Below are positions 4,086 through 21,894 of a stretch of DNA of 64,000 nucleotides, piece by piece. The notes below the pieces were generated by a model. It ran no database searches and was not told the origin of the DNA. It worked only from the letters and a program-made list of their open reading frames with translations. This DNA comes from Phycisphaeraceae bacterium (GTDB lineage: Bacteria > Planctomycetota > Phycisphaerae > Phycisphaerales > Phycisphaeraceae), in contig JAJDCU010000041.1 of the NCBI GenBank assembly GCA_029260655.1, positions 1 through 64,000 of the forward strand. Direction: 5' to 3'. Positions within the stretch are counted from its first letter, which is position 1, and each line of letters opens with the position of its first letter. Both the position numbers and the translations under genes were made by a program.

Positions 4086-4175
4086 CTGTTAGCCGTTAGC
4101 TTGGAACGCTAAGCCGCAAGCGGCTGGTTGGGGGTTGATGCAGACATTGGTTCTCTTCTGGCTAATGGCTAATGG
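4086..4175. repeat. Intergenic TTAGC/GGCTAA repeats with a REP-like palindrome
   Basis: The 122-base gap between apgM and the MlaD-like gene contains several short TTAGC- or GGCTAA-type repeats and, at 4112-4125, the palindrome AGCCGCAAGCGGCT. The same 14-mer recurs at 19860-19873 and 30874-30887. The first two copies also share the preceding CGCTA. No gene is seen here. Confidence 0.6.
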
Positions 4176-4189
4176 CTAAGAGCTCTCAA

Positions 4190-16495: not shown

Positions 16496-17635
16496 TCAGA
16501 CCCGGCCCAGGTTATCGGGCCTTGATGCCGCCTTCTGCGACTGCCAGTCCTCTGCCAGCATGTCGTATTCAACTGCATCGACGTGGCCGCCGTGCAGGGC
16601 GCAAGCCTGACGCTTCACCCCGACCTGCTCGAAACCCAGCCGCTTGGGGACCGCTGCGCTGCGCGTGTTTTCTGTCGCGGCGTGGATCGTCACCCGGTTC
16701 AGGCCCATGTCGATCAGCGAATAGTCAACTATCTCCCGAGCGGCGCGGGTCACGACCCCGTTGCCTTGCGCCGATTCGGTCAGCCAGTACCCGATGTCCG
16801 CGCTGTGGTCGGTGGTGTTCACCGGCTGGTTGCCGATCCCGCCGACGAACCCGCCTTGATAAACCATCCATAGTGTCAGGCCCTTGCCTCCGGCGAAGCC
16901 CTTGAGCATGTCGCGGATGAATGTTTCCGCATCGCCCAAGGCGTACTGAGGCGTGCACCAGGGCATCCAGCGCCCGATGTGCTCGCGGTTGGCGTCGATC
17001 AATTCGTACAGCTCTTTGGCGTGACGCGGCTCGGGGAGACGCAACTCCATCTCGTCGTCCACACGGTGCGTCAACGCGAACGGAGGAGAAGTCACCTGCC
17101 ACTCATCCGCCAATACGCCGAACTCCACCGCATCGTAATAAGTCTCATCGACCCGCCAGGCCTGACGCGACAAACCCTCACGCTTAAACCCAAGCCGTTC
17201 CGCCACACCCAGGCTCGCCGTGTTCTGCGGTGCGATACGGATATTGACCCGATTGAAACTCAGATCGCGGGTCGTAATATCAATAAATGCACGCACCGCA
17301 CGACTCGCCGCCCCCCTGCCCCGCGCCGACTTCGCCAGCCAATATCCGACCTCGACCTGTTTGTTCACCGTGTCAGGCCGAACGTGGAACACCACGCCGA
17401 CCAGTTCGCCGTCAAGCTCAATCCCAAGGCTCATACACCCGGTCTCGGCGGTCTGTGTGAGCCATAGACCGATGTGATCGCGCAGCACCTGGACGTCCGT
17501 CACCTCGCTGACCCAGCGCATCCAAGGCAGTAGCGCCTCGCGGTTCGCATCGACCACCGCGAACAACTCCTCGGCGTGACGCGGTTCGATCAATCTCAGC
17601 GTGATCTCATTATCAATCCGGTATGTGAAGTTCAT
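16496..17635 (-). CDS. Fused tandem GNAT acetyltransferase (two RimJ/RimL-type domains)
   Basis: Two complete RimL-like GNAT domains in one chain. Domain 1 (about 1-185) contains LRLIEPRHAEELFAVVDANR and the CoA-binding YWLAKSARGRGAASRAV. Domain 2 (about 190-379) contains LRLPEPRHAKELYELIDANR and YWLTESAQGNGVVTRAA. The halves are obviously homologous, so the gene arose by internal duplication and fusion. RimL enzymes acetylate ribosomal protein N-termini and work as dimers, so the fusion may be an obligate pseudo-dimer. It overlaps the upstream GNAT gene by 4 bases and belongs to the leuA operon. Substrate unknown. Confidence 0.87.
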   Translation of the reverse strand: MNFTYRIDNEITLRLIEPRHAEELFAVVDANREALLPWMRWVSEVTDVQVLRDHIGLWLTQTAETGCMSLGIELDGELVGVVFHVRPDTVNKQVEVGYWLAKSARGRGAASRAVRAFIDITTRDLSFNRVNIRIAPQNTASLGVAERLGFKREGLSRQAWRVDETYYDAVEFGVLADEWQVTSPPFALTHRVDDEMELRLPEPRHAKELYELIDANREHIGRWMPWCTPQYALGDAETFIRDMLKGFAGGKGLTLWMVYQGGFVGGIGNQPVNTTDHSADIGYWLTESAQGNGVVTRAAREIVDYSLIDMGLNRVTIHAATENTRSAAVPKRLGFEQVGVKRQACALHGGHVDAVEYDMLAEDWQSQKAASRPDNLGRV

Positions 17636-18204
17636 ATCCCGTCACCCCCGTCTACCCTGCGATACATGATGACATCATCCTTGTATTCGCCGGACCCGAA
17701 CTTAGTGCGCTGCGGCAGACGCCCCGCCTCCACGAAACCGAACTTGTGGTACAGCCCCAACGCCCGGTCATTGTCCGCATAGACCTGCAATTGCAGCATC
17801 TCTAACACCGAATGTTCCTCGGCCCATGCGACCAATTGTCCCATCATCGCGGACCCCAGGCCCGAATCCCAATACGCTTTGCGCAATGTCATGCCAATCT
17901 GGCCGACGTGCGCGATACGACGGCGAGACTGAGCACTACAGTTAAGCAAACCGACAACCTCGTTTGTGGTTTCTGCAAGCAAGACCATCCCCCCCGATGT
18001 GTGCTCCTGTGCCAATATCCAGTCTCGCTCTTGATCAACGGTTATAACAAACTCATCTGGCTCGGTCACGACATACCCCGTGAACTCGGGTTGGCCGAGT
18101 TTCAGGTAACGGATCATCGCCTCGGCATCGTCAGGCACCGCGGGTCGTATCGTTACCTCACGGCCATCGCGTAGCTTCACCAACTCGGGGGCTAACACGC
18201 TCAT
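17632..18204 (-). CDS. GNAT-family N-acetyltransferase
   Basis: A single GNAT domain of 190 residues. It starts VTIRPAVPDDAEAMIRYL, and the acetyl-CoA loop is near QIGMTLRKAYWDSGLGSAMM (the usual Q/RxxGxG/A motif reads WDSGLGSA). Motif B is YADNDRALGLYHKFGFVEAGR. It overlaps leuA by 4 bases upstream and the fused GNAT gene by 4 bases downstream, so the three are translationally coupled. Coupling to leucine biosynthesis does not identify the substrate. Confidence 0.87.
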   Translation of the reverse strand: MSVLAPELVKLRDGREVTIRPAVPDDAEAMIRYLKLGQPEFTGYVVTEPDEFVITVDQERDWILAQEHTSGGMVLLAETTNEVVGLLNCSAQSRRRIAHVGQIGMTLRKAYWDSGLGSAMMGQLVAWAEEHSVLEMLQLQVYADNDRALGLYHKFGFVEAGRLPQRTKFGSGEYKDDVIMYRRVDGGDGI

Positions 18205-19847
18205 GGCTGCGCCGCCTTCCCGGAGCGCGTCTCGCCGTTCATCATCGTTGCGTTCACCTTGCGTTCTTCGGTGGTCTTGATGCGGTTGATGGCGGCGAGG
18301 TAGGCCTTCACAGCCGCTTCGATGATGTCGGTACTCAGGCCCCGGCCACGGACCTTGCGGTCGTGGTGGCGTACCTGGACGGTGGCCTCGCCCTGGGCGT
18401 CCTTGCCGCCGGTGATCGCGCGCGTCTGGTAGTCTTCAAGCGTGACCTTGACGCCGGTGATCCGCTGGATGGCGGAGTAGCAGGCATCGATCGGGCCGTC
18501 GCCTGCGGAGGCGTCGGTCATCTCGGTCCCCGATGAGTCGCGCAGCACGACCGTCGAGGTGGCGATCACACCGGTGCCGCTGGTGACCTGGAAGCGCACA
18601 AGCTCCCACAACCGCCGGCCGGTCTCCAACTGCTCATCCAGGATCGCCTCGATGTCTTCGTCGTAGACGTCCTTCTTCTTGTCGGCCAGGGCCTTGAACG
18701 AATCGTAGACCTTGTCCAGCGCTTCGCCATCGAGCGAGTATCCCAGCTCGGTGATTCGTTCGCCCAGCGCGTGTCGGCCGGAGTGCTTGCCCAGGACGAG
18801 CTTGGACTCGGGCACGCCGATGGCGGTCGGGTCCATGATCTCGTAGGTGTTACGGTTCTTGAGCATCCCGTCCTGGTGGATGCCGGCTTCGTGCGCAAAG
18901 GCGTTTTCGCCGACGATGGCCTTGTTCCGCTGCACCTGCAGGCCGGTGAGGTTCGAGACCATCCGGGAGATCGGATAGATCTTGTTAGTGACGATGTGGG
19001 TCTCGTACTTGTCGTAATAGTCGGCGCGTGTACGCAGGGCCATGACGAGCTCTTCGAGCGAGGCGTTGCCCGCGCGTTCGCCGATCCCGTTGATCGTGCA
19101 CTCGACCTGCCTCGCCCCGCCGGCGATCGCCGCCAGGGAGTTGGCGACCGCTAAACCAAGATCGTTGTGGCAATGCGACGAAAGGTAGATCCCGTCGCGG
19201 TCGATCTGCGGCAGCTTCTCACGGACATACGAGAAGATGTGGCCGTATTCTTCTGGCACGGCATACCCGACCGTATCGGGGATGTTGATGGTTGTCGCAC
19301 CGGCTTCGATCACCGCAGCGGTGACATCGACCAGGTAATTCAATTCCGTCCGCGACCCGTCTTCCGGGCTGAACTCGACGTCGTCGACGAACTGCCGTGC
19401 ACGTTTGACCGAATCGACCGAAAGCTTGACGATTTCCTCGAACGCCTTCTTGAGCTTGTGCTCGCGGTGGATACGGCTGGTGGCGCAGAAGACGTGGATA
19501 CGCGGGTTGTTCGCGCCTTGGAGCGCTTCGCCCGCACGGTCGATGTCGCGCGGCACACAACGCGACAGCCCGGCGACGGTCGCCCGGCCAAGCTCCTTGC
19601 CGATCGCGCCTACCGCGTCGAAATCCCCCTGGCTGGTGATCGGGAACCCCGCCTCGATCACATCCACGCCCAGAGCTTCGAGTTGACGTGCGATCTCCAT
19701 CTTCTCGTGATGGTTCAGGCTCGCGCCCGGGGACTGTTCGCCGTCGCGCAGCGTCGTGTCGAAGATCCGGATCGGGGTACGCCCGCCCCCGGAAATGGTT
19801 GTAGAGGTGTCGGCAGGTTGTGCATCGGGTGAATCGCTCATCGTCAT
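18201..19847 (-). CDS. leuA: 2-isopropylmalate synthase
   Basis: First committed step of leucine biosynthesis: condenses acetyl-CoA with 2-oxoisovalerate. The N-terminal TIM barrel opens with [18 protein letters not shown] (catalytic Arg-Asp). The metal-binding HxH is in [19 protein letters not shown], followed by [13 protein letters not shown]. The C-terminal LeuA regulatory domain (about residues 415-530) contains the [12 protein letters not shown] and [21 protein letters not shown] segments, which bind leucine for feedback inhibition. Length 548 is slightly long for the family because of N- and C-terminal tails. Translation may start at 19847 or at the second ATG two codons later. The gene is preceded by a complete Leu attenuator (19930-20109). 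Confidence 0.95.
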
Positions 19848-19859
19848 GCTCCATCGCTA

Positions 19860-19873
19860 AGCCGCAAGCGGCT
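19860..19873. repeat. REP-like palindrome AGCCGCAAGCGGCT in the leuA leader
   Basis: Exact copy of the palindrome found at 4112-4125 and 30874-30887, again followed by short GGCTAA-type repeats (19874-19905). It lies between the attenuator terminator and the leuA start. Confidence 0.6.
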
Positions 19874-19922
19874 ATCCGGCTAAAGGCTAATCGCTAACGG
19901 CTAACTGCTTCCTAATATCCAC

Positions 19923-19954
19923 AAAAAAACCCTGTCGGCTCGGGCCAGACAGGG
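19923..19954 (-). terminator. Attenuator terminator of leuA
   Basis: On the minus strand CCCTGTC (19948-19954) pairs with GACAGGG (19930-19936), extended by GGC/GCC after a one-base bulge, and the hairpin is followed at once by seven T (19923-19929). It lies 32 bases past the leader-peptide stop and 75 bases before leuA. The 5' arm can instead pair with 19984-19991 (GATAGGGT, minus strand), which contains the leader stop codon. The two structures are mutually exclusive. Confidence 0.85.
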
Positions 19955-19986
19955 TGGTTGGTTACGATTCAAACCTTCGCAAGACC

Positions 19987-20070
19987 CTATCCGGCGCGTG
20001 CCATAAGCTCGAGGCTAAGCAGTAGCCCGGCAAGCTTGTTCGCGAAGATAGTAGCGTTGCGGTGGTTCAT
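19987..20070 (-). CDS. leuL: Leucine leader peptide (attenuation)
   Basis: A 27-residue peptide starting MNHRNATIF. Residues 13-22 read LAGLLLSLEL: six leucine codons (CTT, CTA, CTG, CTT, CTC, CTT) in ten. The stop TAG (19987-19989) lies inside the sequence GATAGGGT, which can pair over 8 bases (one G-U) with the 5' arm of the downstream terminator. A ribosome stalled on the Leu codons leaves this sequence free to form the antiterminator. A ribosome reaching the stop covers it and lets the terminator form. This is the classical logic of amino-acid attenuation. A promoter ends 9 bases upstream of the ATG, so the leader may be leaderless. The architecture is seen directly, and the regulatory behaviour is inferred. 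Confidence 0.82.
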   Translation of the reverse strand: MNHRNATIFANKLAGLLLSLELMARAG

Positions 20071-20079
20071 AAGCGGCTT

Positions 20080-20109
20080 AGTGTACGCCCCAGTGGGGCC
20101 TATTGTCAA
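20080..20109 (-). promoter_or_regulatory. Promoter of the leuL-leuA operon with a palindrome in the spacer
   Basis: Minus strand TTGACA (20104-20109), an 18-base spacer, and TACACT (20080-20085). The spacer contains the palindrome GCCCCACTGGGGC (6-bp arms, 1-base centre), which could be an operator. The predicted transcription start is within a few bases of the leuL ATG. Confidence 0.75.
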
Positions 20110-20148
20110 CCCTTTTGATATCGGTTTGCGGGTGGGCTGACATGAAAC

Positions 20149-21894
20149 TTAGACGGGCTGGGGCCTGGATCGCTTGCCGATCAACCCGAACATCATAAGC
20201 ATCACGGCCCCGCTCGCCGGCTCGGGCACGCCGGCCCACCAGGCCAGGGTGAAGTCCGGTGTCTGCTCAAACCCCGGGAACAGTGTCAGGTCCTGTGTAA
20301 ACGCAACCCGCAGCTTGTAGTCGCCGGCCTGGGGCAATTGAAAGAACAGATGTTCGAGGTTGTCAATCAGGCTGTCTGAGCGCCAGACCGCGTTGGCGGT
20401 ATCGGTTTCGCCGGCGAGCATCAGGTACAGGTCGAGGTTGTCTAGCGGCAGGGCTTGGAAAAAATCAGTCCCGGGCTCAAATGTGCCAACAATGCCACTG
20501 TCCACGTATAGGGCCTGCCTGTCCCAAGCCAGCGTTGCGGAGATGAAGTCCCCCGCCAACAGCGACTGGTCCAATAGATAGTCAAAAAACTCGCCCTCGA
20601 CGGTCGCCGCCTGCTTGTCCCATCCGATCATCGGCACGCTGCCCGGTGCCTGTTCACCTGCGTCGTACTGCAGCAGCGCTCGTGTTACGTCCAGTTGCCC
20701 CGCGCCCATCTGCTCGTCCAGCGGGACGGCCGGGTCGGTGAACGCGGCGCTGGCGAGCCAGTCCAGGTCCTGGCGGTCGACGATCGTACGGGTCATCCCC
20801 AGGACGCCGTCGATCTTGTTGGCCGAATTGATCATCACCGCGCGCATGGTTTCGTTAGACGTGTCCATCCCGCGATGGGTCCCCCACTGCTGGAGCAGGG
20901 CCCCCGCGCCGGCGACCAGTGGGCCGGAAAAACTCGTTCCAGCGACCGTCACCCAGTCGGCGTCGACGTCGTCCTGGGGGGTGATGTTGGGGGCCTTGAA
21001 AAGCGAGACGTTGGCGGCGTCAGGGCCTTGAAAGTTAACCGCGGCGCTGGCGTCCCGGCCGTCGTTATCTTCGAACCCGCCGAACGGCACGATCAGCGCC
21101 GCGCCCGGGGCCAGCAGGTCGGGCTTACTCCGCCCCGCCGTGTCAGCCGGACCGTGGTTGCTAAACGGGGCGACCTTGCTGAACGTCTCATCGGTCGCAC
21201 CGACAGACAGCCCGTTGTACGCGTCGGCGGGGATCGAGAAGTTGATGTTGTCCGGCCCGCTGTTGCCCGCGGGGATCACGACCAGTGTGTCACGCTCGTA
21301 CGCCAGGTAATCCAGTGACAAGGTGTATTGTGTGCTTCCGGTGATGATCGAGTCGTTGGACTGATCCTCGACCAGCAGGATGCTCGCCGGGCCTGCGGTC
21401 AGGTCCAGCCCGGCCTGTACCGCGCCGTTGGTGTCCTTGCTCAGATCACTCTTCCAGAACTTCCCGATGTCCAGCGTCGCGCCCGGCGAGATACCGATGT
21501 GCCCGGTCTGCGTGCCCACCGAGTCCAGCCCGTTGCTGACCATGACGCCTGCAACAGCGGTCGCGTGGAAATCGCTGACCCAGACCCGCGGGCCGTCTGT
21601 GGTATTGAACGCGAAAAAGTCGGTGTCCGGGTCCAGCAGGCCTTCGCCGGAGTAGTCGGTCTGTGAGACAATCTTCCCCGCCAGGGCCGGGTGATCCGGG
21701 TCGATCTGGGTATCGACGTCTGCGATGCGGATGCCCGTGCCGTCGATCACCTGCCCGGCGATCGTGTAGCCTGAGAGCTGCCCGGGCAAGGCCCCAACCG
21801 CCTGGATGGCGGTCTCGACCCCCAGCGCAGCGTCACCGCCGAACGCCAGCGACAGCGCACATCCCAAGCCTGCATACCATGGGTGTCGAGACAT
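20149..21894 (-). CDS. Secreted subtilisin-like (S8) serine protease with PEP-CTERM tail
   Basis: A signal peptide (about residues 1-25) precedes an S8 domain. The catalytic Asp is in IRIADVDTQIDPDHPALAG, the His in FHATAVAGVMVSNG and the Ser in GTSFSGPLVAGAGALLQQ, with the oxyanion-hole Asn in VVIPAGNSGPDN. The C-terminus ends in a short PEP-CTERM sorting signal: VPEPASG, a hydrophobic helix and KRSR. This predicts processing by an exosortase and export or anchoring at the surface. The region between the protease domain and the tail (about residues 420-550) is beta-rich, like a P-domain or bacterial pre-peptidase C-terminal domain. Divergently oriented from icd. Confidence 0.9.
   Translation of the reverse strand: MSRHPWYAGLGCALSLAFGGDAALGVETAIQAVGALPGQLSGYTIAGQVIDGTGIRIADVDTQIDPDHPALAGKIVSQTDYSGEGLLDPDTDFFAFNTTDGPRVWVSDFHATAVAGVMVSNGLDSVGTQTGHIGISPGATLDIGKFWKSDLSKDTNGAVQAGLDLTAGPASILLVEDQSNDSIITGSTQYTLSLDYLAYERDTLVVIPAGNSGPDNINFSIPADAYNGLSVGATDETFSKVAPFSNHGPADTAGRSKPDLLAPGAALIVPFGGFEDNDGRDASAAVNFQGPDAANVSLFKAPNITPQDDVDADWVTVAGTSFSGPLVAGAGALLQQWGTHRGMDTSNETMRAVMINSANKIDGVLGMTRTIVDRQDLDWLASAAFTDPAVPLDEQMGAGQLDVTRALLQYDAGEQAPGSVPMIGWDKQAATVEGEFFDYLLDQSLLAGDFISATLAWDRQALYVDSGIVGTFEPGTDFFQALPLDNLDLYLMLAGETDTANAVWRSDSLIDNLEHLFFQLPQAGDYKLRVAFTQDLTLFPGFEQTPDFTLAWWAGVPEPASGAVMLMMFGLIGKRSRPQPV

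Follow-up and report, generated by a model that had tools for sequence, protein, structure and literature searches.

The locus described here has a close described counterpart in the attenuator of the enterobacterial leu operon (Rfam Leu_leader, RF00512), in which, as in the present case, a leader open reading frame (ORF) with a run of leucine codons is followed by alternative antiterminator and terminator folds, with leuA as the first gene. Leu-rich leader ORFs also stand before leuA in Actinobacteria, where they belong to the LEU element (PMC1262725), and the T-box leaders of leucine genes are comparable in that charged tRNA is sensed by transcription attenuation. A further feature of interest, translation of the leader peptide from the very 5' end of the transcript, is familiar from Corynebacterium: the transcription start site of the C. 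diphtheriae ilvB leader lies at the start of the leader, while that of leuA could not be assigned (PMC5784534), and the Corynebacterium ilvB leader peptide is given as leaderless by Morbach et al. (2000), as cited in PMC4046766. Before its own case in Firmicutes, a survey published in 2010 knew of no leader-peptide attenuation shown outside Proteobacteria and Actinobacteria (PMC2965389).

In this work we examine the region before leuA in a 64,000-nucleotide stretch of planctomycete DNA, referred to as the window. The initial annotation had proposed that a promoter, a leucine-rich leader, an antiterminator strand and a terminator together form an attenuator upstream of this gene, and our analysis confirms that all four are present at the place proposed. 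The relevant features are as follows.

20149 to 21894, minus strand: subtilase-like gene, upstream of the promoter.
20080 to 20109, minus strand: near-consensus promoter, TTGACA (20109-20104), an 18-nt spacer and TACACT (20085-20080).
19987 to 20070, minus strand: leader ORF of 27 codons plus TAG, encoding MNHRNATIFANKLAGLLLSLELMARAG; its ATG lies 9 nt past the -10 box.
20005 to 20034, minus strand: regulatory Leu codons 13, 16, 17, 18, 20 and 22 of the leader (CTT CTA CTG CTT CTC CTT).
19984 to 19995, minus strand: antiterminator strand GCCGGATAGGGT (RNA GCCGGAUAGGGU), which overlaps the leader stop codon and pairs with the terminator 5' arm.
19944 to 19955, minus strand: terminator 5' arm, also the 3' strand of the antiterminator, ACCCTGTCTGGC (RNA ACCCUGUCUGGC).
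19923 to 19955, minus strand: intrinsic terminator, composed of the hairpin ACCCTGTCTGGCCCGAGCCGACAGGGT (19955-19929) and seven T (19929-19923).
18201 to 19847, minus strand: leuA, 2-isopropylmalate synthase (TIGR00973, 716 bits against a cut-off of 599; NF002086, 765 bits against a cut-off of 532).
17632 to 18204, minus strand: GNAT acetyltransferase, overlapping leuA by 4 nt.
16496 to 17635, minus strand: double-domain GNAT (RimJ/RimL-like), overlapping the first GNAT gene by 4 nt.

The promoter reads as originally described and is the sole match of a promoter scan between 19500 and 20400, a span for which shuffled sequences lead one to expect 0.2 matches; the 27-codon leader with its six Leu codons likewise stands, in both count and coordinates. 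The leader TAG (19989-19987) is enclosed by GATAGGGT (19991-19984) and lies 31 nt from the terminator hairpin, and the RNA of the leader region folds with a z-score of -4.4 relative to shuffles. The hairpin itself has the form ACCCTGTCTGGC-CCGA-GCCGACAGGGT, with the first of the seven T paired in the stem, and an energy of -17.8 kcal/mol. A generic terminator scan returned no terminator at the locus, its definition being too strict, and RNAfold shows the hairpin clearly. As for the competing structure, the stop-overlapping strand does pair with the terminator 5' arm as had been claimed, but the extent of this pairing has to be revised from 8 bp with one G-U to as many as 12 bp with two G-U, for which we calculate -24.4 kcal/mol when the duplex is scored as two separate strands.

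A comparison with related Phycisphaerae had been set beforehand as the means of examining the proposal. LeuA homologues were taken from whole genomes and public contigs, and their upstream regions were extracted and compared; families bear arbitrary labels, f1 and f6 being the two families of the window's order, and the named f1 relatives are Phycisphaeraceae. Of 42 distinct leuA upstream regions of the same order, 36 contain an ORF in which some stretch of ten codons includes five or more Leu, as against 4.0% of dinucleotide shuffles. A Leu leader together with a terminator is present at 33 of 38 loci in f1 and at all eight in f6 (41 of 46 altogether), and nearly all loci of both families carry a near-consensus promoter at a constant spacing to the leader ATG; a recognisable leader is missing in a few close relatives (L005/L037 and L024). 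It could be argued that the hairpin merely terminates the upstream subtilase-like gene and that the short ORF is accidental, given that about 40 nt separate the end of this gene from the -35 box and that no other terminator was detected between them. In the closest relatives, however, conservation starts at the -35 box and spans the leader, the stop region and the terminator, while the sequence further upstream diverges, and dozens of loci retain both the Leu leader and its pairing with the hairpin. These observations largely refute the idea of a subtilase terminator, which we regard as extremely unlikely.

The competition between the two folds was followed through covariation in 38 loci, for which the antiterminator strand was anchored on the stop codon and the terminators were aligned independently (the leader of L019 was assigned by hand, and the count omits L012 and L016, in which the antiterminator is weak or located elsewhere). 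Standard pairs occupy 79.7% of the cells, and 24 cells are changed on both sides relative to the commonest pair, whereas sliding the partner by 1-3 columns leaves 27-44% of cells paired. When the partner locus was shuffled by row permutation, a mean of 75.2% of cells were paired and 12.1 were double-changed, with none of 1000 permutations reaching either observed value. As such a permutation retains the relatedness among the sequences, we put weight on the compensatory changes visible at individual loci, namely GCTGGATAGGGC/GCCCTGTCCAGC in L014, GACTCGGATAGGG/CCCTGTCCGAGTC in L042, TGCGGATAGG/CCTGTCCGCA in L026 and CGCGGATAGG/CCTGTCCGCG in L047. The assertion that the antiterminator excludes the terminator is thus borne out as a competing pairing that relatives keep by compensatory change, and the Leu codons and the terminator are retained along with it.

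The leader peptides themselves show no constraint on sequence outside the run of Leu and the residues specified by the antiterminator strand, which are frequently ...AG or ...RG ahead of the TAG. This bears on a further explanation, in which the product of the leader is a small hydrophobic peptide with a function of its own, and regulation plays a minor part or none. Action in trans is possible for leader peptides, as reported for peTrpL of Sinorhizobium (PMC7298713), yet here the N-terminal half is not conserved and leaders measure anywhere between 16 and 30 codons, with conservation confined to the Leu codons, the stop context and the pairing. The choice of Leu codons argues in the same direction. 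CTT and CTA account for 47% of Leu codons in the leaders and for 10% in the leuA genes that follow them; within the last 17 leader codons the shares are 30.0% for CTT and 17.5% for CTA, as opposed to 8.2% and 1.7% in those leuA genes (Fisher p = 1.4e-37, from counts rounded from percentages), and the window's own genes use CTT for 8.9% and CTA for 4.4% of their Leu codons. An excess of rare Leu codons suggests selection at the level of the codon, and it points to rare, presumably slowly read Leu codons having been favoured in the leaders as an attenuator would favour them. A peptide function as the main reason for the leader therefore appears exceedingly improbable to us.

How an attenuator of this kind would operate was examined with a fold model in which the RNA left free by the ribosome is folded at equilibrium, assuming a footprint of 14-15 nt downstream of the A site or the stop. 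With the A site on the middle Leu of the run, the window RNA gives 0.98 for the antiterminator and 0.01 for the terminator; once the ribosome has moved to the last Leu codon or to the stop, the terminator stands at 0.90. The same value of 0.90 is obtained for the terminator without a ribosome, the stop-region strand then being held by leader codons near the start, which is the classical 1:2 pairing. The earlier claim that stalling on Leu codons frees the stop-region strand and that reaching the stop hides it accordingly holds in the model of the window RNA. In all 37 loci modelled, a ribosome at the stop yields the terminator; a stalled ribosome tips the equilibrium towards the antiterminator in 19 of them, and at the remaining loci the antiterminator would have to form first, during transcription. 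Because equilibrium folding leaves the two states indistinct for about half of the relatives, we do not count it as evidence there. A ribosome halted on the final Leu codon would, in the model, cover the antiterminator strand at nearly every locus, so that only the earlier Leu codons could act.

Taken together, we consider it highly probable that leuA is preceded by a ribosome-mediated transcription attenuator responding to charged leucyl-tRNA. RNA polymerase would initiate no more than a few bases from the leader ATG, and the ribosome would load directly on the 5' end of the transcript. Were charged Leu-tRNA scarce, the ribosome would be expected to stall in the CTA-CTG-CTT run, whereupon GCCGGAUAGGGU around the leader stop would be free to pair with the terminator 5' arm, and transcription would continue past the antiterminator so formed into leuA and probably the two GNAT genes. 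Were leucine plentiful, a ribosome at the UAG would cover GCCGGAUAGGGU and the terminator would form; it would also form without any ribosome, with GCCGGAUAGGGU held by the upstream part of the leader.

The genes that would fall under this control begin with leuA, whose product carries the LeuA_dimer allosteric domain (PF08502). As leuA and both GNAT genes overlap by 4 nt each, the three are likely co-transcribed and would then share the attenuation. In relatives, a GNAT gene with a 4-nt overlap follows leuA in about 10 of 26 loci examined, and a methyltransferase gene occupies that place in others. Separately, runs of short repeats of the GGCTAA/TTAGC type lie in the gap that separates leuA from the terminator, at 19876-19904, and also at 4158-4179; such repeats occur in relatives as well.

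The proposed mode of initiation follows from the geometry of the promoter. The space ahead of the leader ATG is too short for a Shine-Dalgarno site, and in 39 of 41 loci (31 of 33 in f1 and all eight in f6) 6-12 nt separate the end of the -10 box from the first in-frame start. The usual distance from a -10 box to the start site is 6-8 nt, which would leave a 5' untranslated region (UTR) of about 0-5 nt, and the leader ORF is thus probably leaderless or nearly so. Leaders of other classes treated with the identical routine (20 in f26 and 4 in f54) have 17-87 nt between the -10 box and the start in all but two cases, which argues that the short distance is not produced by the routine itself. Furthermore, the pattern TTGACA-N16-18-TANNNT-N6-11-ATG occurs 16 times in the window's genome (L113-L128) as against once in a reversed control, and several of these strict leaderless-type promoters precede ordinary small transcription regulator genes. 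Given this excess, leaderless genes seem to exist generally in this genome.

Beyond the order, Leu leaders followed by a terminator occur in f26 (20 of 20), f54 (4 of 5), f25 (3 of 3), f52 (2 of 2), f31 (1 of 1) and f53 (1 of 1), and in two Verrucomicrobia (L107 and L110); these attenuators mostly have longer 5' leaders. The combination was not detected in the AT-rich family f38 (0 of 16), nor in f15 (0 of 5), f40 (0 of 4), f56 (0 of 3), f16 (0 of 2) or f60 (0 of 2). Among the eight genomes of f8 and f9, most have a Leu leader and lack a clear U-tract terminator, possibly a variant of leuA control; in L180, L181, L182, L183, L186, L192 and L193 the Leu-rich leader ends in residues of the LLLLR type, with a GC-rich stop region. 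Such loci lend some substance to an explanation in which leucine is indeed sensed by the leader, with translation or Rho-dependent termination, rather than an intrinsic terminator, as the main target of the switch. For the window and its family this is very unlikely in our view, given that the hairpin and U-tract stand at a near-constant distance and that the 5' arm pairs competitively with the stop region.

The hisG upstream regions yielded no convincing His leader, and among the trpE regions examined a single genome (L245) has an ORF with three Trp codons, MNHKHAAYWQVYWRRWQS, about 213 nt upstream of trpE, which is possibly a Trp attenuator. Before ilvB, the window's genome has a leaderless leader ORF encoding MLSDGTQALILTDLPAQTAVGVVVS (L212, block at G000:C7:14342-14363), and most of 28 family genomes have a Val leader there that ends across the near-invariant block GTTAGCTGAGCGGANGACCCGC; no U-tract terminator was seen in the stretches read. 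The block also occurs before valS in 6 of 23 family loci, including the window's genome (L283 and L262, G000:C43:78767-78788), and in one f6 genome, the stem being mostly GGGG/CCCC instead of GCGG/CCGC, a compensatory change (further ilvB or valS loci are L218-L244, L263, L264, L270, L274, L279, L281 and L284). Seven ilvB loci gave no Rfam match for the block, and in a sample of 294 planctomycete genomes it is limited to f1 and f6. Over 22 loci, the 100 nt that follow it have a mean composition of 38% C and 24% G, and that this C-rich, G-poor RNA is a Rho site is only a guess. We put forward tentatively, and with rather more doubt than conviction, that the window's order senses its branched-chain genes by common leaderless leader ORFs, with Leu attenuators at leuA and terminator-less Val sensors of an undescribed class, perhaps acting via Rho, at ilvB and valS. 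The Val-leader block may be the more novel of the two.

Attenuators of this kind had been supposed to be little described in planctomycetes, and this fits the literature searched, in which we found no description of planctomycete attenuators or leader peptides (the survey of Lopatovskaya et al. 2010 may include such cases). As the attenuation mechanism and leaderless leader peptides are already known, what would be new is their occurrence in planctomycetes. Leader-peptide attenuation, best documented in Proteobacteria and Actinobacteria, is thereby extended to many families of Planctomycetota and to two Verrucomicrobia. If the locus works as predicted, the coupling of transcription to translation is tight enough to permit attenuation in planctomycetes, a group whose cell plan has been debated, and the leaderless leaders of one order set against the mostly leadered ones of other classes offer a natural comparison of the effect of initiation on attenuation.

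In silico, the window locus has the constituents of classical leu-type attenuation: a leader ORF of cognate codons, an intrinsic terminator, an exclusive antiterminator and a fold selected by the ribosome. No Rfam family, Leu_leader and the T-box models included, matches 19700-20300 at E up to 10, and a T-box, unlike this locus, needs no leader peptide. The LEU element differs by its description in that its Leu run pairs with the leuA Shine-Dalgarno box, as a pseudoknot or an alternative hairpin, whereas the planctomycete locus combines a terminator ending in a U-tract with an antiterminator placed at the stop of the leader. With the leaderless ilvB leaders of Corynebacterium it has in common a branched-chain leader peptide, and its transcript would, if it starts where the promoter predicts, likewise begin at or close to the leader ATG without a ribosome binding site, although the gene there is ilvB and here leuA, and the sequences are unrelated. 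Relative to the enterobacterial leu attenuator, finally, it is set apart by a 5' UTR predicted to be very short or absent ahead of the leader ATG, by an antiterminator strand that overlaps the leader stop, and by belonging to another phylum.
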